Origin: Thermodesulfobacteriota bacterium
Lineage (GTDB): Bacteria; Desulfobacterota_D; UBA1144; Nemesobacterales; CSP1-2
DNA length: 36,795 bases
Direction of reading: 5' to 3'
NCBI GenBank assembly: GCA_035559815.1
Contig: DATMAT010000005.1
Coordinates: forward strand, 1 to 36,795
Part shown: positions 7,283 to 19,430 of the stretch, piece after piece
Layout: the number at the start of each line of letters is the position of its first letter
Position numbering within the stretch: position 1 is the first letter of the stretch
Translations under genes and position numbers: made by a program
The notes under the pieces: model-generated
What the model was told of the DNA's origin: nothing
Databases searched by the model: none
What the model saw: the letters and a program-made list of their open reading frames with translations, nothing else

Positions 7283-8449
7283 TCAGCCTCTTGCCAAAAT
7301 ATGAACCACACATGTTGCACCGGAGCCGCCTATGTTGTGGGTAAGCCCTACCTCCGCTCCTTTAACCTGCCTTTCCTGAGCTTCTCCCCGGAGTTGAAGG
7401 GCAATCTCGACGACCTGGTCCACTCCGGTTGCTCCCACCGGATGTCCCTTTGCCTTAAGACCCCCGCTCGGATTCACCGCAAATTTGCCGTTTAGCGATG
7501 TAACGCCGTCTAACGTAGCAGGGCCACCCTCACCTTTAGGAACAAACCCCAAGTCCTCGATGGCCATTATCTCCGCAATCGTAAAGCAGTCATGCACCTC
7601 TACCACGTCCACATCTTCAGGATTGATGCCGGCCATAGTAAATGCCATCCTGGCCGATTCTATCGTCGAATCAAATCTGGTCAGGTCATCTTTTTGATAA
7701 AGGGCAAAGGAATCATTTGCCTGCCCGTAGCCGATTATTTCAACAGGTCTTTTAGAGAAACCCTTTGCCAAGCTCCTTTCTCCGAGAACAACGGCCGATG
7801 CGCCATCGGTTATGAGGGAACAGTCATAGAGACGGAGAGGGTCGGCAACGATCCTAGTGTCATCCAAAACCTGTTCCATGGTCAGGGGCTTTTGCATATG
7901 TGCATCGGGATTCCGGAGGCCGTTACCGTGATTCTTTACCGCTACCGCCGCCAGATGCTCTCTCGTCGTGCCATACTGATGCATGTGCCTTCTTGCCATC
8001 ATAGCAAAAGCGCTTGGAAAGGTGTAACCGACTTTTACTTCACGCTCCCAGTCCCCGGCCTTGGCCAGAAACTCAGTAACCTTCGGCGTGGGAACTGTGT
8101 TCATTTTTTCGACCCCGACTACCAAAACCCTGCTGGCTGCCCCGGCGGATATGGCCAGAATTCCTTCTCTTACCGCGGATCCGCCGGAAGCGCAAGCGTT
8201 CTCGATGTGTGTGCAGGGAACATTACCCCTAAGCCCCAATGCTGCCCCCACATAAGGAGCCAGATGATTCTGGTTGATAAAATCGCTACCGGCGTAGTTT
8301 CCGAGGTAAAAAGCGTCTACCTCTCCCGGAGTGATTCCGGCATCGTCCATCGCCTTTTTACCGGCCTCTACAGCCAGGTCTAGAAGGGTTTTTTCTTTTA
8401 AAACTCCATATTTGGTTTTTCCTACTCCAATTACCGATACCTTTTTCAT
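7283..8449 (-). CDS. SCP-x-type thiolase, catalytically intact
   Basis: This 388-residue thiolase-fold protein belongs to the SCP-x/lipid-transfer group. The nucleophilic cysteine is present in E-N-A-C-A-S-G-G (C86). H286 is in V-H-D-C-F-T, and G-H-P-V-G-A-T-G and T-H-N-I-G-G-S-G-A-T-C are also present. It should therefore cleave 3-oxoacyl-CoA with CoA, or condense acyl-CoAs. The length is normal and there is no SCP2 domain. The DUF35 gene follows after five bases, so the two would form a thiolase/DUF35 complex as in archaeal acetoacetyl-CoA thiolase and BbsAB. That partner is frameshifted here. The preferred substrate cannot be read from the sequence; the neighbours suggest products of amino-acid-derived acyl-CoA oxidation. 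Confidence 0.9.
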   Translation of the reverse strand: MKKVSVIGVGKTKYGVLKEKTLLDLAVEAGKKAMDDAGITPGEVDAFYLGNYAGSDFINQNHLAPYVGAALGLRGNVPCTHIENACASGGSAVREGILAISAGAASRVLVVGVEKMNTVPTPKVTEFLAKAGDWEREVKVGYTFPSAFAMMARRHMHQYGTTREHLAAVAVKNHGNGLRNPDAHMQKPLTMEQVLDDTRIVADPLRLYDCSLITDGASAVVLGERSLAKGFSKRPVEIIGYGQANDSFALYQKDDLTRFDSTIESARMAFTMAGINPEDVDVVEVHDCFTIAEIMAIEDLGFVPKGEGGPATLDGVTSLNGKFAVNPSGGLKAKGHPVGATGVDQVVEIALQLRGEAQERQVKGAEVGLTHNIGGSGATCVVHILARG

Positions 8450-8752: not shown

Positions 8753-9715
8753 TCATGAGGTTTTCACCAACAGCAACCTCCTCCGGCATTGATCCTTCGC
8801 CAGGGATAAAAGAAACTTATCAAATGACTTAGATTTAAGAAGAAGTAGTTCCAGTTTCTTGGACACTGAATCAAGGGAATGGGAAGAGGCGACTCCCTCG
8901 TCGATCGCGACCTTAAGCAGCCCGCCGGAATTTGCTATAAAATCCGGTATATACAAGATTCCTCGGTCGTTGAGCAACTCGGCTAATTCGTCATTTTCCA
9001 ATTGGTTGTTGGCAGCACCGCAAATCACCGAAGCTTTTATACCTGAAACATTGTTCCTTGTTACTACGGGGCCAATAGAGCAAGGCACAAAATAGTCAAC
9101 CTCTGTATCTATCCCATCTGGAGGAATCACCTGAAACACATTGGGATCGAGTCTCCGGAGGTTTTCACAACGACTCTTATCTATATCGCAGACAAATATA
9201 CGAGAGGGAGAGGCTTTATGAAGCATCTCTGCAACAAGGCTTCCTACCTTTCCCACTCCTTGTACGAGCGCAGAGTCTATCGGGATATTCCTCGACCGGG
9301 CCACCGCTTTTATACACTCTACGACCACATAAGCCGTAGCATAGGCAGTATCGATCGTAGACACGTAAGAAGTCATAGTCTTAAGATACTCCAGGTCTTT
9401 AATAGATGTTCCTACATCGGTAGCCGTAAGAAATGAACCCTCAAGCCCATTTAATATTTTTGCATAAGCATCCCAATCCGCTTTCGTCAGGTCGGAGGGA
9501 CTAGCATCTATAACCGCCTTCGCCCCGTACCAGGGCAGTCCGGCCCAGGCACATTTGTAAGCCATAGTCTCGCACAAGCGCTCACAGTCGGAAAATGCAT
9601 CTTCAGATGACCGGTATTTGTACACCCTGGTGCCCCCTACACATACCTGGCCCGATTTCTCCATACATATGTGAATGGCGTGTCCGCCGGGGAGGCTCTC
9701 ACAGATGTATCTCAT
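8753..9715 (-). CDS. Divergent Glu/Leu/Phe/Val dehydrogenase
   Basis: Members of this family oxidatively deaminate an L-amino acid to a 2-oxoacid with NAD(P). The 320-residue protein shows the dehydrogenase N-domain (V-G-G-T-R-V-Y, L-C-E-T-M-A-Y-K-C-A-W-A-G-L-P) and the catalytic lysine region Y-G-A-K-A-V-I. It also has T-A-T-D-V-G-T-S, the Rossmann motif V-Q-G-V-G-K-V-G, C-G-A-A-N-N-Q-L and D-F-I-A-N-S-G-G-L. It is closer in size to leucine/phenylalanine dehydrogenases (about 350 residues) than to GDH. The usual L-P-x-G-G-G-K loop reads L-P-W-Y-G-A-K, and the glycine-rich segment before the Rossmann domain (normally G-G-x-P-S) is replaced by Y-V-S-T-I-D-T, so the substrate may be unusual. 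It lies in the minus-strand series after the ferredoxin oxidoreductase genes, which could take its 2-oxoacid product. Confidence 0.82.
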   Translation of the reverse strand: MRYICESLPGGHAIHICMEKSGQVCVGGTRVYKYRSSEDAFSDCERLCETMAYKCAWAGLPWYGAKAVIDASPSDLTKADWDAYAKILNGLEGSFLTATDVGTSIKDLEYLKTMTSYVSTIDTAYATAYVVVECIKAVARSRNIPIDSALVQGVGKVGSLVAEMLHKASPSRIFVCDIDKSRCENLRRLDPNVFQVIPPDGIDTEVDYFVPCSIGPVVTRNNVSGIKASVICGAANNQLENDELAELLNDRGILYIPDFIANSGGLLKVAIDEGVASSHSLDSVSKKLELLLLKSKSFDKFLLSLAKDQCRRRLLLVKTS

Positions 9716-9886: not shown

Positions 9887-11293
9887 CTAACTTTCAAGCC
9901 TCCTTTCGGAGAAAAAGTTATCCAAAAACGAAGCCATAAAACGTGGATTCGTCAAGTTAGAGAATTCATCCCATTTTTTTATCATTTCTCTACGGACGCC
10001 TCCATATCCTCTAACAATCGCCCCACCCTTTGCCGCCAGCATTGCGGAATCTAAGCCATGGGTCAAAGAGCGTTTCACATGTTCTACGTATTTTTCTACA
10101 AGAGAATTTTCTTTCGAGTATCTGAAGGAACTCCTTCTCATGAATCGCAGTTTAGACATCGCTTTAAGCAACAGAAATCCGGATAGGTGATTGGTATATA
10201 ACTCCGTTTTCCAGGAAATCTTGTACTTTGATAGCATCCGGTCTAATAACCTTCCCAATGGCTTGGGGAGAACACCGTAAAGTTCATCAGCCTCCGGCCT
10301 GAAGAAATCCTTGACCCAGAAAACCTCTCCATCTTGAATTGTATAGAGCTTTTTTATTCGCTCGAATCTGCCTTTGCTGATTTTCTTTTCAGCGATCCTT
10401 ATAACGTCTTCGTACATCATCCTCACTGCCAAAACCCGGGCAAACTCCTTCATTAGCTCTCCACATTTATCATTCTTCCCGAACATCTCTAGGGCATACC
10501 GATGAAGGTCGTTAAGCCTGCTCATGTAAAGCTCGGCATAATCTTTATCCTGATACTCGATGATCTGTCTTACCGCCTCAACCACAACGTCCTTGATGCC
10601 GTTTCCATAAACCGACCGAAGCTTTTCTATTGAATCTTTGATGTATCCATCGGGAAGACTATAAAATCCGTTTACCTTGAACCCTTCTTCGAGCAAGTCC
10701 CCTTTTGTTTTCTTGAAAAGTTCATATCCAGCGGTAAAATCCCTAAGATTTCTCTCCGGGTCTATTCCTACTGTTTTTATCGCTTTCTCATAACTCTCTC
10801 TTTTAATGCCTGGCAGATAGCCGGAAGCACATAACCCCCCGACTAGGTGGGCATTACTAAAGTCCGATAAGCCCATTCTATGAATATCCACCACAATATG
10901 ATCTCTGGAATTCTCCTCTATGAGGCCGCGAAAATTTTCGTATGTATAAATGTCCTTCTTTAAAGAGAGCTTTTCATAAGTGGTATAGTACCGGAAGGTC
11001 GTTCCGAGAATGTTACAATTTTTTCCCCCATATCCCTCTTTGAGTATCCGGAGAAGTTCCATAAATTCCTGCGAGATTATAAGATCTAGTTTTCCCTTTT
11101 CCGGGAATGGTGAAAAAAGAAAGTCATTATTGGGCACAATCTCCATGTAGGAAAGAGTGCGCCCGGCACGCTGGCTCACTCCGGGAAGACTTAGAACATG
11201 GGGTTGTAATCCTTCGGAGATAGCTGCAGCCGCAAGCCATTCTACAAAAACCCCTACCCCCAAACCGCCTACCGATGTGATGAGTATTTTCAT
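9887..11293 (-). CDS. iorB: Indolepyruvate-type ferredoxin oxidoreductase, beta (IorB-like) subunit
   Basis: This 468-residue protein begins M-K-I-L-I-T-S-V-G-G-L-G-V-G, the gamma-type domain of 2-oxoacid:acceptor oxidoreductases (residues about 1-190). L-P-G-V-S-Q-R-A-G-R-T follows, as in the IorB group. A long helical C-terminal extension (about 200-468) is typical of the large bacterial IorB form rather than the 200-residue archaeal one. It would pair with the TPP subunit at 12097 and the iron-sulfur protein at 11427 to convert an aryl or branched 2-oxoacid, CoA and oxidised ferredoxin into acyl-CoA, CO2 and reduced ferredoxin. The exact substrate is not visible. It is the third gene of the series, 133 bases after the iron-sulfur gene. 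Confidence 0.85.
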   Translation of the reverse strand: MKILITSVGGLGVGVFVEWLAAAAISEGLQPHVLSLPGVSQRAGRTLSYMEIVPNNDFLFSPFPEKGKLDLIISQEFMELLRILKEGYGGKNCNILGTTFRYYTTYEKLSLKKDIYTYENFRGLIEENSRDHIVVDIHRMGLSDFSNAHLVGGLCASGYLPGIKRESYEKAIKTVGIDPERNLRDFTAGYELFKKTKGDLLEEGFKVNGFYSLPDGYIKDSIEKLRSVYGNGIKDVVVEAVRQIIEYQDKDYAELYMSRLNDLHRYALEMFGKNDKCGELMKEFARVLAVRMMYEDVIRIAEKKISKGRFERIKKLYTIQDGEVFWVKDFFRPEADELYGVLPKPLGRLLDRMLSKYKISWKTELYTNHLSGFLLLKAMSKLRFMRRSSFRYSKENSLVEKYVEHVKRSLTHGLDSAMLAAKGGAIVRGYGGVRREMIKKWDEFSNLTNPRFMASFLDNFFSERRLES

Positions 11294-11426: not shown

Positions 11427-11978
11427 TTAGCCTAAACTTTCTATAACAAAATTCCTTAATTTGAACATGAATCTTTCGTAACGAGACGGATTGATAACCC
11501 TGTCCACCTGGTAGAATGACGGGCATAGCTTTGCCAAATGGGCAATCTCACTGCAAAGACCGCATCCTATGCAGGAATAATCGATCCAGGCGATTTTATC
11601 GTCCTTGAGCGGATTAGGATTGTTTCGCACGGTAAGTGAAGGACAACCATTATAGGAGATGCAAGAATGATCACCGGTACATACGTCCTCATCCACGCCT
11701 AATTTTCGTTCAACCCATCTTCCGCCATCGCTTAGCGTCCGGGACTTAATATTTTTTATCTTTCTTCCTGCTTCGAGCGCGCACTCCGCATCCGAGATTA
11801 TCACCTTCAAGCCTTTATAGCTTGATTTGTACGCCTCTCTTATTGTTTCGAGCGATTCCCCCACGTCGTAAGGGTTGACCACCTTTATCCACTTTACACC
11901 CATGCCTTTTAGAGTTTTTTGTATATCCGTCTCCGCCTTTTGATAAAATTTCTTAAGCTGTGGATAAGGGCCTTTCAT
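11427..11978 (-). CDS. Iron-sulfur (C-terminal IorA-like) subunit of indolepyruvate-type oxidoreductase
   Basis: This 183-residue protein corresponds to the last part of large IorA proteins. Residues about 1-70 resemble the end of the TPP-binding half (V-K-W-I-K-V-V-N-P-Y-D and K-V-I-I-S-D-A-E-C). A two-cluster ferredoxin-like region follows: C100-T-G-D-H-S-C106 to G-C112-P, then C136-x2-C139-x2-C142 with C152-P. The C-T-G-D-H-S-C form is characteristic of the fused bacterial IorA. Here it is a separate gene with its own AAGGAG site nine bases before the ATG at 11978, so I prefer that start over the longer frame to 12002. It should carry electrons from the TPP centre to soluble ferredoxin. 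IorA is thus split in two in this genome. Confidence 0.83.
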   Translation of the reverse strand: MKGPYPQLKKFYQKAETDIQKTLKGMGVKWIKVVNPYDVGESLETIREAYKSSYKGLKVIISDAECALEAGRKIKNIKSRTLSDGGRWVERKLGVDEDVCTGDHSCISYNGCPSLTVRNNPNPLKDDKIAWIDYSCIGCGLCSEIAHLAKLCPSFYQVDRVINPSRYERFMFKLRNFVIESLG

Positions 11979-12096
11979 TGTTTTTAACTCCTTTTTTAAC
12001 ACAAGGGCATGAGTGTCAACGACTTCGGTAGTTTGCTTGTCTACGGGTTTAAAAAATGCGGCAACACGTTAACCCGCTAACCCTTGAACATTGTCA

Positions 12097-13644
12097 CTAA
12101 TTCTCCTTAACTTTCTTTAGCTTTATAACCTCCCTCGGGGTGGAGAGGTTCCTTTGATGCCCGGTCATTGCCGTATGATAGTTATAAAAGACCACGAGCA
12201 CGGCGTCCTGGTCGTTTCTGAGAGCATTTGCCACACTGGTGGTGAGTCCGCTATGCCAGAACGTACCGTCTCCCATGAATGAGATCACTCTTTCTTCGTT
12301 TTTTCCCGCCCTGGAGAGTGCGCCGGAACTGGCCATTCCCGTTCCCATTCCGGTGACTGAAGCCTTAAAATCAAAAGGAGGCAGTCCACCCAAGGCATAA
12401 CACCCGATATCGCTGCTGAAGAGAAGCCTCGCTTCCGGGTTTTGCTTCTTAAGTATCTTGATTGCCGAGAAGATCGGCCTCTCCGGACAGCCGGTGCAGA
12501 ACGTTGGACGCCTTTCCGGAATTTCCAGAGCGGAAATTTCGCCTTTTACTTCCACTTGTACCTGGAAAAATTTAGACAGCCCGCCAAGCACGGTTTCGTA
12601 GGAAACTTCACCCGCTTTTGGAATAATCTCTTTCCCCAAAATCTTTGTGCTGATTCCGTTTGCTTGGGCTACTGCCCTAATCTCCTTCTCCAGGATGTTA
12701 GGCATTCCTTCCTCGACAATAAGCACCTCTTCTTTATCGGCGAGAAACTCAGCCACCTCGTTTTCTACAATCGGATATAGGCAGTGAAGGGAATAAACGG
12801 GACAGTCTTCATCGATCGAGTTAAGTGCCCTCAGCACCATGTTCATCAATACCCCGTGAGTGATAATGCCTATGCTTTTATTTGAGCTGTGGTTATACAC
12901 TCTGTTTATCCCTGCTTCCTTTATGAATTCAGTGGCCTTGGGCAGTCTTAGGGTATATTTTTCTGCCTCCTGTATCTGGGTATAAGGAGGGAAAGTCAAC
13001 TTCTCCAGTATCTCTTCTTTTACCTGAACCTTTTCCGGTCTTTTATTATCTCTAGCCTTGACCACTTCGGACATATACCCGACCCGGCTCCTAACAAGCA
13101 CGATCACCAGCGAGCCGGAGTATTCGGAAAGCGCAAACCCGTCGTGTATTAAATCCGAAAGATGCTGGAGCGATGCGCTCGCATCCAGTATGGGAAGCCC
13201 GGATTTATAAGCATAGGGAAGGGTTTTTTCGGCGACTATCGTGTTGTTGCAACCGTAATCCTCTCCCACCAGGATTAGCGCTCCGCCTGTAACTCCGGAC
13301 GACGCTATATGTGCAATCGCATCCGCCGCAACGTTAAATCCAACTACTTTAAAAGCAACCGCGCCGCGTATAGGGTTACTTATCGATGACCGGAGTGCCG
13401 CTGCCGCTGCCGCTTCGTTTGTCGATTCCTCGGCGTAAATGCCAATGTCCCGAAGTACGGTATGTTTTACCTTATCCACCAGGCTGGTAACTGTTGCGGT
13501 AGGAGAGCCCGGATAGCTGGCAAAATAGGAAATGCCGCTCTCCAGCAAGGATTTAAGAATTACAACTGCTCCGCTCCCAAAGTACTCATTTCCACCATCA
13601 AGAAGCAGTTGATTTTCGACTTTTTTATCGTAAGAGATAGCCAT
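12097..13644 (-). CDS. iorA: Indolepyruvate-type ferredoxin oxidoreductase, TPP (IorA-like) subunit without ferredoxin domain
   Basis: This 515-residue protein has the pyrimidine-binding half (G-S-G-A-V-V-I-L-K-S-L-L-E-S-G and Y-P-G-S-P-T-A-T) and a middle transketolase-C-like part. The TPP half has F-C-T-G-C-P-E-R-P, S-S-D-I-G-C-Y-A-L-G and F-M-G-D-G-T-F-W-H-S-G. The TPP/Mg motif finishes with F-Y-N-Y-H-T-A-M-T-G-H-Q. Full-length bacterial IorA continues into a ferredoxin domain; this one ends soon after T-G-H-Q with K-L-K-K-V-K-E-N and a stop. The missing part is encoded by the next gene (11427-11978). The 118-base gap contains stops and a separate ribosome site, so this is a real split rather than a single frameshift. 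It is the first gene of the minus-strand series and diverges from the acyl-CoA dehydrogenase gene. Confidence 0.87.
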   Translation of the reverse strand: MAISYDKKVENQLLLDGGNEYFGSGAVVILKSLLESGISYFASYPGSPTATVTSLVDKVKHTVLRDIGIYAEESTNEAAAAAALRSSISNPIRGAVAFKVVGFNVAADAIAHIASSGVTGGALILVGEDYGCNNTIVAEKTLPYAYKSGLPILDASASLQHLSDLIHDGFALSEYSGSLVIVLVRSRVGYMSEVVKARDNKRPEKVQVKEEILEKLTFPPYTQIQEAEKYTLRLPKATEFIKEAGINRVYNHSSNKSIGIITHGVLMNMVLRALNSIDEDCPVYSLHCLYPIVENEVAEFLADKEEVLIVEEGMPNILEKEIRAVAQANGISTKILGKEIIPKAGEVSYETVLGGLSKFFQVQVEVKGEISALEIPERRPTFCTGCPERPIFSAIKILKKQNPEARLLFSSDIGCYALGGLPPFDFKASVTGMGTGMASSGALSRAGKNEERVISFMGDGTFWHSGLTTSVANALRNDQDAVLVVFYNYHTAMTGHQRNLSTPREVIKLKKVKEN

Positions 13645-14038: not shown

Positions 14039-15184
14039 ATGTGGCTTTTTAGGGAAGAACACGAAATCTTTAGACGGAGCGTTCGTCAGTTCGTGGAAAA
14101 AGAGGTGGTCCCCTATACCGAGGAGTGGGAAGAAAAGGGGGAGATTCCCCGCTCTATATGGAGACGAATGGGCGAGCTTGGTTTCCTGGGAATAGAATAT
14201 CCCGAAGAATACGGAGGAGCGGGAGCGGATTTTATCTACACCTTAGTTTTCATGGAGGAAATCTCAAGATGTGGGGCAATGGGATTCCCTATAAGCGTAA
14301 GCGTGCATACGGATATGGCTTCTCCCTATCTTCACCTGGGGACAGAGGAGCAAAAGAAAAAATACCTTGCCAAAATAATCAAAGGTGAGAATGTATGTGC
14401 CGTCGCAGTCACAGAGCCGAGCGGAGGGTCAGATGTGGCCGGTATTCACACCTATGCAAAGCGCGACGGCAGGCACTACATTTTAAACGGAAGCAAGATT
14501 TTTATCACCAACGGTGTTAACGCCGACATCTATTTCGTGATGGCCAGGGTGGGTGAGATAAACGAAAAAGTTCGCCATAAAGGGATTTCCATTTTCATCG
14601 TGGAGAAAGAAACCCCCGGTTTAAAGGTCGGAAGGAAACTAAACAAGATGGGATGGCTCTGTTCTGATACAGCGGAGCTTTTCTTTGAAGACTGCCGGGT
14701 ACCCGGTGAAAATCTACTTGGAGAGGAAGGCGAGGGATTTCGTGAGATTATGAAGAATTTTCAGCGGGAGAGACTGGTACTATCTATAACAGCGGTTTCC
14801 GCCTCACAAAGAGCGGTTGAAGACACGATTGCTTATGCACGGGAAAGGGTCGCTTTCGCTCATCCCCTATCAAAATTACAGGCAATCCGACACAAGATTG
14901 CCGACATGCTTACCCAGGTGGAAGCTGCGCGTCAGCTTACGTACTATATCTCTTGGCGTTTTAACCAAGGAAAAGCAACAGATATGGAAGTCTCCATGAC
15001 TAAGCTTTTTACCACTGAAATGGCAAACCGTATTGCTTATGAGGCGCTCCAGATTCATGGTGGATACGGGTACATGCGGGAGTTCCCCATAGAGCGATTC
15101 TACAGGGATGCAAGAGCCCTCACCATCGGGGCCGGCACCTCGGAAATAATGAAGGAGATTATAGCAAAAAGGCTCGACCTTTGA
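14039..15184 (+). CDS. Acyl-CoA dehydrogenase, isovaleryl-CoA-dehydrogenase-like
   Basis: This 381-residue FAD enzyme introduces a trans-2 double bond into an acyl-CoA and passes electrons to ETF. Visible signatures are V-T-E-P-S-G-G-S-D-V-A (FAD/substrate loop), M-G-W-L-C-S-D-T-A-E and Q-I-H-G-G-Y-G-Y-M-R-E-F-P-I-E-R. The usual C-terminal catalytic glutamate (Y-E-G-T in short- and medium-chain enzymes) is replaced by G-A-G-T. An E-R-L-V-L motif in helix G (E244 in Q-R-E-R-L-V-L) matches the place where isovaleryl-CoA dehydrogenase carries its base. This points to a branched or bulky acyl-CoA substrate. AAAGGA lies six bases before the ATG. It is the first gene of the plus-strand series that continues with two thiolase-fold genes and DUF35, and it is divergent from the oxidoreductase genes. 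Confidence 0.92.
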   Translation: MWLFREEHEIFRRSVRQFVEKEVVPYTEEWEEKGEIPRSIWRRMGELGFLGIEYPEEYGGAGADFIYTLVFMEEISRCGAMGFPISVSVHTDMASPYLHLGTEEQKKKYLAKIIKGENVCAVAVTEPSGGSDVAGIHTYAKRDGRHYILNGSKIFITNGVNADIYFVMARVGEINEKVRHKGISIFIVEKETPGLKVGRKLNKMGWLCSDTAELFFEDCRVPGENLLGEEGEGFREIMKNFQRERLVLSITAVSASQRAVEDTIAYARERVAFAHPLSKLQAIRHKIADMLTQVEAARQLTYYISWRFNQGKATDMEVSMTKLFTTEMANRIAYEALQIHGGYGYMREFPIERFYRDARALTIGAGTSEIMKEIIAKRLDL

Positions 15185-15346: not shown

Positions 15347-16495
15347 TTGAAGGTTGCAATAATCGGCGTTGGCCAAACCGCGTATGGAGAAAAGAAAAAC
15401 CAATCGATTGATGAGATGGTATTTGAAGCCACAAAGAATGCTCTAGAAGATTCCGGACTGGAGAGGGAAGAAGTAGAAAGCGTCGTCACTGCCGGCTCAG
15501 ACGGTCTCGATGGATGCGCTATATCCAATATGCTGACTGCGGGCTCTTCCGGCGCTTACTTGAAGGATGAAGTCAAAGTGTCGGGCGGCGGCATTTACGG
15601 GCTTGTTCTGGGGTATCTGAGAGTGGCTTCCGGTGCTTTTGATAACTCACTCATTGTGAGCTGGACTAAATCATCTGGAGTCTCGGTAGAGTTAATAAGT
15701 AATCTAGCCTATGATCCATTTTATCTGAGAGACTGCGGTTTCAATCTTGTAACCTCACTCGCCTTTGAAGCTTCCATCTACATGCATAAAACCAAGACTA
15801 AAGATAAAGACGCGGCGGAGATAGTCCTTAAGAACAGAGAAAACGCCTCTAGAAATCCACTCGCTCATCTAATTGACAAGCCCTTGATGAGGAAAACAAG
15901 TTTGAGCAAGTACATTTCCTACCCACTTCGGGAATGCCATCTTCCGCCGAGCTCAGACGGAGCGTGTGCACTAGTAATCGCTTCAGAAAGGAGAGCCAGG
16001 TCGCTCAAGAAGAATTGTGCTTGGGTAACGGGGCTTGGATGGGCAATAGATGGTTATTATGCCGATGATAGATTGGTAGAGACACGCCATGGCGTCTCTC
16101 TACATTCCTTGAAAAAATCCTCCGAAATGGCCTTTACCATGGCACGGATCAAAAATCCACTGGAGGAGATTGACGTCGCCGAGGTGAGCGATGTTACTCC
16201 CTTTCATGAGATGATGTTATACGAAACCCTTGGTTTTTGCACTGATGGAAATGGAAAGGAACTGATAAGAGAGGGGATTACAAAACTCGACGGAAAGCTT
16301 CCGGTGAATCCTTCCGGTGGAATTCTCTCTTCAAACCCGATTTTTGCGTCGAGTCTGGTGAGGGTGGCTGAAGCAGCACTTCAAGTAATGGGAAAGGCAG
16401 CCGGAAGGCAAGTGAAAAATGTAGATATAGCTTTGGCGCAAGGATTTACCTGGCACTCTACCCAAGGCAGTTGCACGGTGATTCTTAGGAATTAG
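15347..16495 (+). CDS. Thiolase-fold protein lacking catalytic residues (paralogue A)
   Basis: This 382-residue protein is clearly of the SCP-x-type thiolase fold: I-I-G-V-G-Q-T-A-Y-G start, R-N-P-L-A-H-L, S-D-G-A-C-A-L-V-I-A, and L-P-V-N-P-S-G-G-I. The nucleophile position reads K-V-S-G-G-G, with Gly80 where the intact thiolase at 7283 has Cys86. The H-D-C-F histidine becomes S-D-V-T, and G-H-P-x-G-A-T-G becomes S-N-P-I-F-A-S-S. It therefore cannot work as a Claisen thiolase. Related cysteine-less thiolase folds act as aldolases or as structural subunits with DUF35 partners. TTG start at 15347 with AAGGAGG at 15334-15340. It is followed by a second cysteine-less paralogue. A palindromic repeat is embedded at 16076-16101. 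Confidence 0.85.
   Translation: MKVAIIGVGQTAYGEKKNQSIDEMVFEATKNALEDSGLEREEVESVVTAGSDGLDGCAISNMLTAGSSGAYLKDEVKVSGGGIYGLVLGYLRVASGAFDNSLIVSWTKSSGVSVELISNLAYDPFYLRDCGFNLVTSLAFEASIYMHKTKTKDKDAAEIVLKNRENASRNPLAHLIDKPLMRKTSLSKYISYPLRECHLPPSSDGACALVIASERRARSLKKNCAWVTGLGWAIDGYYADDRLVETRHGVSLHSLKKSSEMAFTMARIKNPLEEIDVAEVSDVTPFHEMMLYETLGFCTDGNGKELIREGITKLDGKLPVNPSGGILSSNPIFASSLVRVAEAALQVMGKAAGRQVKNVDIALAQGFTWHSTQGSCTVILRN
16076..16101. repeat. Palindromic dispersed repeat family 3, copy inside a coding region
   Basis: The arms GTAGAGAC (16076-16083) and GTCTCTAC (16094-16101), with an inner GCCATGGC, lie in frame inside thiolase-fold paralogue A and encode about V-E-T-R-H-G-V-S-L. The same arms form the intergenic hairpin at 11356-11384. 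The encoded segment is in a poorly conserved surface region between Y-Y-A-D-D-R and the S-E-M-A-F-T helix. Confidence 0.6.
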
Positions 16496-16505
16496 GCGTA
16501 TTCGC

Positions 16506-16588
16506 CACAAATGTACACGAATAGGACTCGAATTATTTTTGATTTATTTTGGATAAATTTTATTCGCAAAAATTTGTGTTAATTCGTG
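16506..16588. repeat. Imperfect inverted repeat in the intergenic gap
   Basis: CACAAATGTACACGAAT (16506-16522) and AATTTGTGTTAATTCGTG (16571-16588) are imperfect inverted copies flanking an AT-rich centre. They fill the gap between the two thiolase-fold genes. It is probably another decayed intergenic repeat rather than a terminator; the gene that follows starts only 15 bases later. Confidence 0.4.
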
Positions 16589-16603
16589 ACTAAATTTTAA
16601 ATC

Positions 16604-17791
16604 ATGAAACCACGTAACATCGGGATCATAGGAGTAGGACAGACGAAGTACGTTACCAGAAGGGATGACGTGACTTTGCCCGAACTGGCCAGGGAAGCGG
16701 CAGTCCTAGCTTTGGAAGATGCAGGAATAGCTTTCAACGATTTAGATGGAATGGTCTTTTCATTGGCACTGGATGCGTTAGAGGGAACGGAAGGAGCGGA
16801 AAGATGGTGTGCAGATGCGGTTGGTGGCCGGAGGATACCGTTTATCAGGGTTCACACCGGAGGTGCTACCGGGGGTTCCGCAACACATGCCGGGTTTCTT
16901 CATATTGCATCCGGTCTTTTCGATTGCATTCTTGTCATAGGGGCTGAAAAGATGGGCGAGACGCCGGATGCACAAAAGGTGCTTAATCAAATCTTCGACC
17001 CCGTATATGAAAGATCTGTCGCTATCAATGCGGTAAATATGTGCTCATTTCAGGCGGCGAGGCATATGAAAAAATACGGAACTACCGAATACCAGATGGC
17101 TCTCGTGGCAGTGAGAAGTAGAAAAAACGCGCTAAGAAACCCGCATGCTCACATCAGAAAAGAAATCAAGGTGGAAGACGTTTTAACTTCGAGGGTGATT
17201 TGTTATCCGCTAAAACTATATGATTGCTGTCCAAGGTCGACCGGGGCATGTGCTGTGGTCATTGCTTCTGAAAAGTTTATAAAGAAACTCGGCAAAAAGA
17301 ATATAGCCTGGATAAAGGGTATTGCCGCTTGCACGGGTACCTACTATATGGGAGACAGGATGGATGGGTCATCAGCTAACGACCATGCCGATGCGGACGG
17401 TTTATTCTTGGCCGCAAAAAGGGCTTATCAGATGGCCGGGATAGATAATCCCAGGAAGGAAATTGACGTCGCAGAAATTTACGCTCCTTTTACCTCCACG
17501 GAGCTTGCCGCTGTCGAGGCCCTTGGATTCTGTGGGAAAGGTGAGTCAGGGAAATATAACGAAAAGGGATTGTTTGATATGGAAGGAGGGATACCGGTAA
17601 ATCCATCCGGAGGAGTGCTTACGGCAAACCCGATAAGCGTTACCGCTTTGGCCCGGGTTGCAGAAGCCTCACTTCAGGTAACCGGAAAAGCCGGAGAAAG
17701 ACAGGTTAGCAAATCGAAAACGGCAGTTGCTACGGGTGAAGGCGGGTCCCTTCAGTTTTATACGGTGACGGTTTTGTCGAACAAAACTTAA
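16604..17791 (+). CDS. Thiolase-fold protein lacking the nucleophilic cysteine (paralogue B)
   Basis: This 395-residue SCP-x-type thiolase-fold protein (I-I-G-V-G-Q-T-K-Y, R-N-P-H-A-H-I, S-T-G-A-C-A-V-V-I-A, V-N-P-S-G-G-V) has T-G-G-A-T-G-G-S-A at the nucleophile region. Gly87 replaces cysteine. The H-D-C-F-T motif reads I-Y-A-P-F-T, with tyrosine in place of histidine, and G-H-P-x-G-A-T-G reads A-N-P-I-S-V-T-A. Tyrosine at that position is seen in Ltp2-like retro-aldolases of steroid side-chain degradation (from memory), so an aldolase activity is plausible. It probably forms a complex with paralogue A and with the DUF35 protein at 17881. No Shine-Dalgarno sequence is visible before the ATG, so translation may depend on the upstream gene or use a weak site. 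Confidence 0.85.
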   Translation: MKPRNIGIIGVGQTKYVTRRDDVTLPELAREAAVLALEDAGIAFNDLDGMVFSLALDALEGTEGAERWCADAVGGRRIPFIRVHTGGATGGSATHAGFLHIASGLFDCILVIGAEKMGETPDAQKVLNQIFDPVYERSVAINAVNMCSFQAARHMKKYGTTEYQMALVAVRSRKNALRNPHAHIRKEIKVEDVLTSRVICYPLKLYDCCPRSTGACAVVIASEKFIKKLGKKNIAWIKGIAACTGTYYMGDRMDGSSANDHADADGLFLAAKRAYQMAGIDNPRKEIDVAEIYAPFTSTELAAVEALGFCGKGESGKYNEKGLFDMEGGIPVNPSGGVLTANPISVTALARVAEASLQVTGKAGERQVSKSKTAVATGEGGSLQFYTVTVLSNKT

Positions 17792-17792
17792 T

Positions 17793-17864
17793 AACCACGA
17801 CGACACAACGGCACGAAGTGAAGAATTATTTTATTATCCGTTGTATCGTCGTGCCGTCGTGGTT
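17793..17864. repeat. Long imperfect inverted repeat between thiolase-fold B and DUF35
   Basis: The left arm (17793-17811, beginning AACCACGACGACACAACGG) pairs with parts of the right arm (17838-17864), which contains both CCGTTGTATCGTCGTG and a second CCGTCGTGGTT. The gap consists almost entirely of this element. It resembles the shorter block at 9744-9759. It sits between co-directional genes, so it is likely a mobile-type palindromic repeat. It could still form an RNA hairpin affecting relative expression of DUF35. Confidence 0.6.
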
Positions 17865-17880
17865 GAATGGAGATAAATAA

Positions 17881-18342
17881 ATGAATGAAGAGGACCTAAT
17901 ATTCATTCCCCAGCGCTGGGACCTAAAGTTTCATCATGCTGCCGGAGAGACGGGAACTAGGTTCTTTAAAGCCATCATGGAGCAAAAGGAAATTTTGGGG
18001 AAGAAGTGTCCAAAGTGTAAAAGGGTACTTCTTCCTCCCCGCTCATTTTGCGAAAGGTGTTTTGTCGAAACGACCGAGTGGATGAAGATCGGCAGCGAGG
18101 GCACGATTCAAGCCTTTACCATAGTCTATGAAAAATTTGAAGGACTTCCCGACCCACCATATGCCATTGCTTACGTTTTGTTAGATGGAGCAAACACGGC
18201 GATGGCCAACTTCGTAAAGGGAATAGACTTGAGCGACATAAAGAAGGCATTTAAGCGCATAAAAATCGGGGCAAAGGTGCAGGTAGCCTTCAGGAAAAAG
18301 AGACAGGGAAGAATTACAGATTTCTGGTACGAGCTAAAATAG
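17881..18342 (+). CDS. DUF35 protein (zinc ribbon plus OB fold), intact
   Basis: This 153-residue protein has an N-terminal helical stretch (about 1-40) and then the DUF35 zinc ribbon (C43-x2-C46, L-P-P-R, C57-x2-C60). An OB fold follows (S-E-G-T-I-Q-A-F-T-I-V-Y, P-P-Y-A-I-A-Y-V, G-A-K-V-Q-V-A-F). These proteins bind the acyl-CoA or bridge subunits in complexes with SCP-x-type thiolases, HMG-CoA synthases and Ltp-type aldolases. The position right after the two cysteine-less thiolase-fold genes marks it as their partner. Unlike the DUF35 gene at 6944, this one is intact, and it has the extra N-terminal helix. GGAG lies about nine bases before the ATG. Its stop is two bases from the end of the convergent deoxyhypusine-synthase-like gene. 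Confidence 0.9.
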   Translation: MNEEDLIFIPQRWDLKFHHAAGETGTRFFKAIMEQKEILGKKCPKCKRVLLPPRSFCERCFVETTEWMKIGSEGTIQAFTIVYEKFEGLPDPPYAIAYVLLDGANTAMANFVKGIDLSDIKKAFKRIKIGAKVQVAFRKKRQGRITDFWYELK

Positions 18343-18344
18343 CG

Positions 18345-19430
18345 TCAGCCGATATTAAATGAACGGGAGAAATCTATCCCCTTTCTCCTCGACTTTACCC
18401 TTTCCGCCAAGGCATGAGCAACTATGGGCAGGGCTATAGTCGCTTCACAATAGCATTGGATGAACCTCCCGGTGGGTGACTCTTTTCCCCAGGAAACCGC
18501 CTCCTCAAACGTACATCCGGAAAGCCCTCCCCACTGGGGCGAGTCGGTGGTTATCTGGACGGCGTATTTGTGCGGATAATATGTTTCATTCGTACTGCTT
18601 CGCTTAAGACCATCTTTCCTGTTGGGAATTTCCCTATTCTTGTAGAGCAGGTCCCCGGTTACAGCAAAAAGCTGGATGAAGTCCTTGGGTACGCCTCCTC
18701 CTATGTATATAACTCCGGTGTTTTTAACCTTCTCTCCTAGTGTCATAAACTCGACATAATCCTTTATAGCATCAATGGTCAGGTTAAAACCCCGGCTCTT
18801 AGCAATCAGGGCGGCATCGCCGTAAGGGCTGTCCGCTATGGCCGGGCAGAAGATGGGAACGCCCTTTTCCGCGGCTACCGTGACGATACTTCTTATCTTT
18901 CTTTGTCCGAGCCATCTTCCGAAAAGATAAAGAAATTCTCTCGAGGAATATTTATACTCCTGGTCGAGTGTCATTATGAATTCTGCTATCAGTTCGGTCA
19001 TCTCCAGGTAATCGCTTTCTTTCCCGTAAACATCGTAGTATCTATTAAAACCCTCTCTGAATAGCTCTTCGTTATCAACCAGGTGGTTTCCCTGCCAATA
19101 ACCAAAGCCCATGGCATCCACGATATCCTCAGAAATATTTGCCCCGGTCGGGACTAAAATATCAATAAACCTGTTTTCTATTAACCAGTTAATTATCTTC
19201 CACTGTCCGGTCGTTGATAAGGAACCGGCATAACCGAAAAGTATGGTAGTATTCTTATCGCTGATCATCTCCTCCATGACGTCAACCACCTGGGCCAGGT
19301 TTCTACCCTGAAACCCGGTGCGGGACATCTCTGCCAGGAGTTTAGAGACGGTCTTCGGTGCCTCTACTTCTATTGCCTTAACCTTCCGGGTAAATACCTC
19401 TTTTTTTTCTGCCTTTTTCTGTTTATACAA
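18345..19430 (-). CDS. Deoxyhypusine-synthase-like protein
   Basis: This 361-residue protein has the fold signatures of deoxyhypusine synthase: F-G-Y-A-G-S-L-S-T-T-G near the NAD site, V-P-T-G-A-N-I-S-E-D, Y-I-G-G-G-V-P-K-D and the active-site block E-E-A-V-S-W-G-K. K316 is equivalent to the enamine-forming lysine. Deoxyhypusine synthase moves an aminobutyl group from spermidine to eIF5A, but bacteria have no eIF5A. Bacterial homologues are thought to act on small polyamines, for example in homospermidine or spermidine formation; the substrate here is unknown. A TTG start at 19430 is supported by GGAGG nine bases upstream. It is transcribed alone, convergent with the DUF35 gene (two-base gap). 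Confidence 0.88.
   Translation of the reverse strand: MYKQKKAEKKEVFTRKVKAIEVEAPKTVSKLLAEMSRTGFQGRNLAQVVDVMEEMISDKNTTILFGYAGSLSTTGQWKIINWLIENRFIDILVPTGANISEDIVDAMGFGYWQGNHLVDNEELFREGFNRYYDVYGKESDYLEMTELIAEFIMTLDQEYKYSSREFLYLFGRWLGQRKIRSIVTVAAEKGVPIFCPAIADSPYGDAALIAKSRGFNLTIDAIKDYVEFMTLGEKVKNTGVIYIGGGVPKDFIQLFAVTGDLLYKNREIPNRKDGLKRSSTNETYYPHKYAVQITTDSPQWGGLSGCTFEEAVSWGKESPTGRFIQCYCEATIALPIVAHALAERVKSRRKGIDFSRSFNIG

Follow-up and report, generated by a model that had tools for sequence, protein, structure and literature searches.

Tandem cysteine-less thiolase-fold proteins with a DUF35 partner: a candidate Ltp3/Ltp4-type carbon-carbon lyase in a Thermodesulfobacteriota bacterium

Among the closest described systems, the aldolase TcLtp2 uses Tyr294 as base and Tyr344 as acid, and the aldolase CtSal, in which the thiolase Cys is replaced by Gly, uses Tyr302 as base and Cys304 as acid (PMC12329534); in the literature, Ltp3 and Ltp4 bear the name aldol-lyases and are described as essential when the sterol side chain is branched at C24 but not when it is straight (PMC6273163, PMC4761994). 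Here we describe two tandem genes, encoding the thiolase-fold proteins A and B, that precede a DUF35 gene in a Thermodesulfobacteriota bacterium (assembly GCA_035559815.1). The stretch analyzed, hereafter the window, comprises 36,795 nucleotides and is a whole contig (DATMAT010000005.1) of a 4.0-Mb bacterial genome. We proposed that A, B, and the DUF35 protein probably form one Ltp3/Ltp4-type heteromer, in which B would be a retro-aldolase for 3-hydroxyacyl-coenzyme A (CoA), A a pseudo-enzyme partner, and the DUF35 protein a clamp. The pair would be a variant of this type because it falls in the same clade as a DUF35-linked pair from a Rhodococcus cholesterol cluster, which we read as Ltp4/Ltp3.

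Active-site residues and the A-B family

The genes and residues compared are located in the window as follows.
7283-8449, minus strand: control thiolase, with Cys, HDCF, and GHP motifs kept
15347-16495, plus strand: thiolase-fold protein A, TTG start; predicted degenerate partner; homologous to PRK06066 and to the protein that we read as Ltp4 in Rhodococcus (PRK07937)
15500-15502, plus strand: A Asp52, invariant in 92 of 92 A sequences
16187-16189, plus strand: A Ser281, at the HDxF His position; not conserved among A sequences
16604-17791, plus strand: thiolase-fold protein B; would be the catalytic subunit; homologous to PRK06065 and to the protein that we read as Ltp3 in Rhodococcus (PRK08313)
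16862-16864, plus strand: B Gly87, replaces the thiolase nucleophile Cys; Gly in 92 of 92 B sequences
17480-17482, plus strand: B Tyr293, in the column of TcLtp2 Y294 and CtSal Y302; predicted general base; 92 of 92 B sequences
17627-17629, plus strand: B Asn342, replaces the GHP His and TcLtp2 Tyr344; 92 of 92 B sequences
17881-18342, plus strand: DUF35 protein, intact zinc ribbon C43-x2-C46-x10-C57-x2-C60 and OB fold

In our alignment, the control thiolase retained C86, H286-D-C-F, and G-H-P-V-G-A-T-G, and both A and B lacked the nucleophilic Cys, the HDxF His, and the GHP His of SCP-x-type thiolases, with NPI at the GHP site; on the control thiolase and on NPI, a first-pass annotation made from the letters alone had read the sequence in the same way. 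It had also reported Gly at the nucleophile position of both proteins, which holds for B (Gly87), but the loop of A is shortened by a three-residue deletion at the Cys (SGG---GIYG) and does not represent a simple Gly exchange. Similarly, its finding that the catalytic His was lost from both is borne out by S281-D-V-T in A and Y293-A-P-F in B, but it missed that this Tyr of B aligns with the base of Ltp2 (Y294) and Sal (Y302). When Rhodococcus Ltp2 was aligned with TcLtp2, whose structure is solved, Tyr294 and Tyr344 could be located, and Tyr293 and Asn342 of B share those columns. Because Tyr is the catalytic base of Ltp2 and Sal at the same position, the change from His to Tyr in B appears to be more than mere loss.

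Both proteins keep the thiolase fold, as first annotated. Pfam matches were obtained with Thiolase_C_1 in A and B and with Thiolase_N in B, and AlphaFold2 single-chain models, which rest on 78 B and 71 A sequences, were confident (pLDDT 93.3 and pTM 0.94 for B; 92.5 and 0.94 for A). The top Protein Data Bank (PDB) matches of both models were thiolases, with Ltp2 and Sal lower in the list. The DUF35 protein carries the domains zf-ChsH2 and OB_ChsH2_C.

A scan of genome contigs, together with searches of related groups, yielded 91 distinct tandem pairs, with A preceding B on the same strand in every case. These came from Dehalococcoidia (the class of G063), the phylum of an Archaeoglobus genome, Elusimicrobiota, Mycobacteriales, and the window's family, and further pairs were found on plasmids of Rhodococcus and Simplicispira. 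The sequence sets used here therefore comprise 92 members each, namely the 91 pairs and the window sequence, itself also within one of the loci. At the old active-site columns, all 92 B sequences had Gly for Cys, Tyr for the HDxF His, Asn for the GHP His, and Ile at the third GHP position, and 88 of the 92 had Pro next but one after the Tyr. At the Tyr column, the 92 A sequences varied (Ser in 32, His in 18, Asp in 14, Tyr in 12, and Cys in 7), no Cys was among the residues listed for their nucleophile column, and their invariant positions were located elsewhere (Asp52, Gly56, Glu279, and Asn321). Thus, equivalence of A and B was ruled out by invariant columns in the one and variable columns in the other; on these alignments, the simplest reading would be that B is the enzyme and A a dead partner.

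Several observations on individual members are added here. Residue 81 of the window A (15587-15589), directly before the lost nucleophile position, is Gly, and Asp occupies this position in 89% of A sequences; the A of the Rhodococcus plasmid has only 304 residues, is annotated as hypothetical, and has unrecognizable motifs. Paralogous pairs are notably expanded in Dehalococcoidia, where up to four sampled pairs occur in single genomes (e.g., G117, G192, G191, and G167), as they also do in an archaeon. On a Simplicispira suum plasmid (L308, 6535-13839), one operon combines A-B-DUF35 with a Cys-type thiolase and an Ltp2-type protein (YDHF, AYIHG), the latter annotated as hypothetical and accompanied by its own OB-fold protein. 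Three Thermoplasmata loci (L040, L043, and L049) were rejected as B orthologues since HDAF and GHA are kept; they represent a different Cys-less thiolase type (TGGATGG) with a DUF35 neighbor. The extra B-type matches G106:C96, G203:C124, and G100:C13 were thiolases of the HDCF/GHP kind.

Co-descent, selection, and gene neighborhood

A phylogeny including Ltp2, which the first-pass annotation had suggested as a check, placed A and B in one clade (support 99), separate from Cys thiolases and from Ltp2. Within this clade A and B split, their trees largely mirror each other, and each half holds its homologue from the Rhodococcus sterol cluster. The distances among A proteins and among B proteins were correlated at 0.755 over the 91 pairs; for the 59 genome-assigned pairs, the correlation was 0.70 against 0.33 ± 0.06 when B genes were permuted among paralogous pairs inside each genome, and 0 of 2000 shuffles was as high. 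These results demonstrated that A and B were inherited as a unit, which fits a heteromer. Forcing B and Ltp2 into a joint clade lowered the log-likelihood by 35.7 units, yet this placement is not rejected at 5% (p-AU 0.053); separate origins of the Tyr in B and Ltp2 would therefore be favored rather than established.

The Rhodococcus cholesterol cluster (L147) contains a double-DUF35 protein, A-like and B-like proteins, an LLM oxidoreductase, a cytochrome P450, and a steroid 3-ketoacyl-CoA thiolase of the FadA5 type (PRK07850, 707 bits against a cut-off of 515). Its pair scores above the cut-offs for PRK07937 and PRK08313, and its gene order equals that of Rv3521 (unnamed), ltp4 (Rv3522), and ltp3 (Rv3523), of which we take Rv3521 to be a DUF35 protein. 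For the window B, and also A, the best NCBIfam match was PRK08313, below cut-off. The Archaeoglobus A and B score above the cut-offs of PRK06066 and PRK06065, two models named only "thiolase domain-containing protein." The first-pass annotation had taken the complex to be a candidate for a new type, a view that the homology to the Rhodococcus pair read as Ltp4/Ltp3 does not sustain.

The order acyl-CoA dehydrogenase (ACAD)-A-B-DUF35 recurred in two genomes of the window's family (G003 and G001), whose B orthologues are 77-80% and A orthologues 65-71% identical to those of the window. The pN/pS values were 0.17-0.19 for B and 0.25-0.28 for A over three comparisons (0.25-0.26 against the window), compared with 0.13-0.16 for the control thiolase; the orthologues are free of stops, and synonymous sites are close to saturation. 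Pseudogenes or relaxed selection, including the independent recent pseudogenes that had been named as the outcome speaking against a functional pair, were excluded by pN/pS of 0.17-0.28, the lack of stops, deep conservation, and the joint clade. The A-B feature is real and under selection.

The arrangement first annotated, with A and B in tandem after an ACAD and before an intact DUF35 gene, agrees with the order of the open reading frames and with the zinc ribbon. The remaining features of the locus are as follows.
8753-9715, minus strand: Glu/Leu/Phe/Val (ELFV) dehydrogenase family protein of the IOR cluster; present in G003 too, but none found in the stretch from G001
9887-11293, minus strand: IOR beta-like protein, IOR cluster
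11427-12002, minus strand: Fer4 protein, IOR cluster
12097-13644, minus strand: 2-oxoacid:ferredoxin oxidoreductase (IOR) alpha, divergent from the A-B cassette
14039-15184, plus strand: ACAD (open reading frame, Pfam)
18345-19430, minus strand: deoxyhypusine-synthase family gene, convergent with the DUF35 gene, observed here in a bacterium

Neighborhoods were counted for the 31 pairs in which B is flanked on either side by 3.5 kb or more of sequence. DUF35 genes were near all 31 (at least two in 22), ACAD genes near 17, and MaoC hydratase genes near 8; CoA ligases, CoA transferases, and enoyl-CoA hydratases were additional neighbors, and BKACE genes were near some pairs. The orders observed include ACAD-DUF35-A-B-DUF35-MaoC in Elusimicrobia, three ACADs divergent from MaoC-A-B-DUF35 in Dehalococcoidia, and ACADx2-MaoCx2-A-B-DUF35-CaiB-SDR-CoA ligase on a Rhodococcus plasmid. 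Such neighborhoods match the logic of dehydrogenation, hydration, and aldol cleavage known for Ltp2 and Sal. The papers on the Rhodococcus strain with the plasmid, as far as accessible, named no substrate for its pLP1-type operon, and a full-text literature search found no terpene-linked operons of this kind.

Proposed reaction and competing explanations

The first-pass annotation had proposed carbon-carbon cleavage or hydration by A, B, and the DUF35 protein. An aldolase-type unit is supported by the co-descent of the pair, the DUF35 gene by every pair with enough flank, the recurrent ACAD and hydratase genes, and the base Tyr; hydration by the pair is unsupported, because separate MaoC-family hydratase genes adjoin several pairs. 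We proposed that the upstream ACAD would yield an enoyl-CoA, which a hydratase encoded elsewhere would convert to a 3-hydroxyacyl-CoA. Tyr293 of B would then take the proton from the beta-hydroxyl, which Gly87, in place of Cys, would give room to and bind, and the bond between C-alpha and C-beta would be broken in a retro-aldol step that would release an acyl-CoA together with a ketone or, less likely, an aldehyde. A, as a catalytically dead paralogue, would complete the thiolase-type assembly, and the DUF35 protein would clamp the complex. The likely reason for an aldolase may be a beta-branched substrate, whose tertiary alcohol could not be oxidized to a beta-ketone. Given the same pair in very different bacteria and archaea, this is probably a widespread, largely unstudied carbon-carbon-cutting complex.

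Several points weigh against this reading. The main mechanistic gap is that B, with the base Tyr and the Gly, has neither known acid, as Asn342 stands in place of Tyr344 of Ltp2 and Pro295 in place of Cys304 of Sal. Any operon alone could produce the co-descent of A and B, and B-type genes without an adjacent A occur in two cases (L216 8299-9483, a second copy, and L282 4791-5975). The window has no hydratase gene, and MaoC genes sit on other contigs. Moreover, the Rhodococcus pair is read as Ltp4/Ltp3 from synteny and NCBIfam models with no named record, the aldol-lyase label of Ltp3 and Ltp4 is based on genetics cited second-hand, and the open literature searched contained no enzymology of either protein.

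Since aldol chemistry is reversible, the complex could also work in the synthetic direction or perform another carbon-carbon reaction on an acyl-CoA (aldol addition, decarboxylation, or beta-keto acid cleavage), which would suit a B without the second catalytic residue of Ltp2 and Sal and the BKACE genes near some pairs; the thiolase-like TbSLP has weak malonyl-CoA decarboxylase activity (PMC12329534). We regarded this as rather unlikely, because the neighbors look catabolic (ACADs, MaoC hydratases, CoA ligases, and CoA transferases) and the Rhodococcus relatives sit in a degradation cluster. A non-catalytic role for A and B, as acyl-CoA carriers or as scaffolds of thiolase fold that together with DUF35 serve the neighboring dehydrogenase or a hydratase, seems improbable: every thiolase catalytic residue is gone from both, A itself appears catalytically dead, and DUF35 has been proposed in the literature as an acyl-CoA-binding protein, but the Tyr and Asn invariant at the old active site of B across bacteria and archaea would be needless for a scaffold, and related Cys-less proteins with the same Tyr are characterized aldolases.

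As to the substrate of the proposed retro-aldolase, homology to the Rhodococcus sterol-cluster pair would point to the side chain of a sterol or another steroid, like the substrates of Ltp2, Ltp3, and Ltp4, rather than to a small branched acyl-CoA. However, no sterol-pathway gene was recognized in the annotation of the window, the whole genome not having been screened, the pairs are present in archaea, and in the window's family the cassette is linked to the IOR-type cluster; we considered such a substrate quite improbable. This IOR alpha paralogue was present in three of three family genomes with the cassette (G000, G001, and G003) and in none of four without it (G002, G004, G005, and G006), and seven family genomes gave no match above cut-off for 3-hydroxy-3-methylglutaryl-CoA (HMG-CoA) lyase. 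In the ACAD, Ala365 occupies the site of the usual base, and Glu244, within QRERLVL, lies on the helix that isovaleryl- and long-chain acyl-CoA dehydrogenases use. Together these features hint, by way of a guess from few independent genomes, at an amino-acid-derived branched acyl-CoA, perhaps from leucine. In this organism the route might run from leucine through isovaleryl-CoA, 3-methylcrotonyl-CoA, and 3-hydroxyisovaleryl-CoA to acetone and acetyl-CoA, which fits the co-occurrence of IOR cluster and cassette and the lack of an HMG-CoA lyase match. A wider proposal, which we put forward as unlikely, is that bacteria and archaea split beta-branched, tertiary 3-hydroxyacyl-CoAs by means of a Tyr/Asn-dependent aldolase of thiolase fold, for which a pseudo-thiolase partner is obligate, with neither biotin carboxylation nor HMG-CoA lyase involved.

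Existing annotations label the A-B genes thiolases or lipid-transfer proteins, identities that their sequences exclude. If the retro-aldolase reading is true, a large family would be carbon-carbon lyases for branched acyl-CoAs, and beta-oxidation of branched compounds would have been misread in many uncultured microbes; with its invariant Gly/Tyr/Asn signature in B and its degenerate A, the pair opens this claim to direct testing, in Ltp3/Ltp4 as well.

Comparison with known systems

PhlABC and the complexes of HMG-CoA synthase, thiolase, and DUF35 likewise combine two thiolase-superfamily proteins with DUF35, and PhlABC has one inactive; however, there an HMG-CoA-synthase-type protein is the second member and the active protein has retained the Cys (in PhlC, Cys88), whereas A and B are both SCP-x-type and Cys-less. 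The benzoylsuccinyl-CoA thiolase BbsAB resembles the pair as an SCP-x-type thiolase with a DUF35 partner and gave a weak family match, but the deposited BbsB keeps the Cys, HDAF, and GHP that are all lost in A and B. An ordinary thiolase, PhlABC, and the HMG-CoA synthase complex were thus ruled out by active-site residues.

Ltp2-ChsH1/ChsH2 (TcLtp2-DUF35, PDB 6OK1) and Sal-Shy (CtSal-DUF35, PDB 9MYR) share with the window the thiolase fold, DUF35, Gly for Cys, and the base Tyr, which in Ltp2 stands at the HDxF His position. Ltp2 differs in having His296 and Tyr344 at the positions of Pro295 and Asn342 of B, in its separate branch of the tree (p-AU 0.053 for the joint clade), and in that no thiolase-fold partner has been described for it; its DUF35 is part of a hydratase subunit (PMC12329534). 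An assignment of B to the Ltp2 type proper fails on the second catalytic residue. In Sal, the acid Cys304 lies within YDCY, at the Pro of B, and the protein is described as a homodimer with a DUF35 domain on each of two flanks (PMC12329534).

The closest likeness is to Ltp3/Ltp4: A-like and B-like genes in tandem with DUF35, A and B each grouping with the matching Rhodococcus protein, the B-type Y-x-P-F and NPI, and the absent nucleophilic Cys. The differences are that identity between the window B and its Rhodococcus counterpart is only about 34%, that the window DUF35 is single and downstream whereas that of Rhodococcus is double-domain and upstream, and that the window, without a CYP125/fadA5-type sterol cluster, has the upstream ACAD and the divergent IOR cluster. 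Taken together, the window pair represents the Ltp3/Ltp4 type in a non-sterol variant, its two members being clearly divided into a predicted catalytic and a predicted non-catalytic one.

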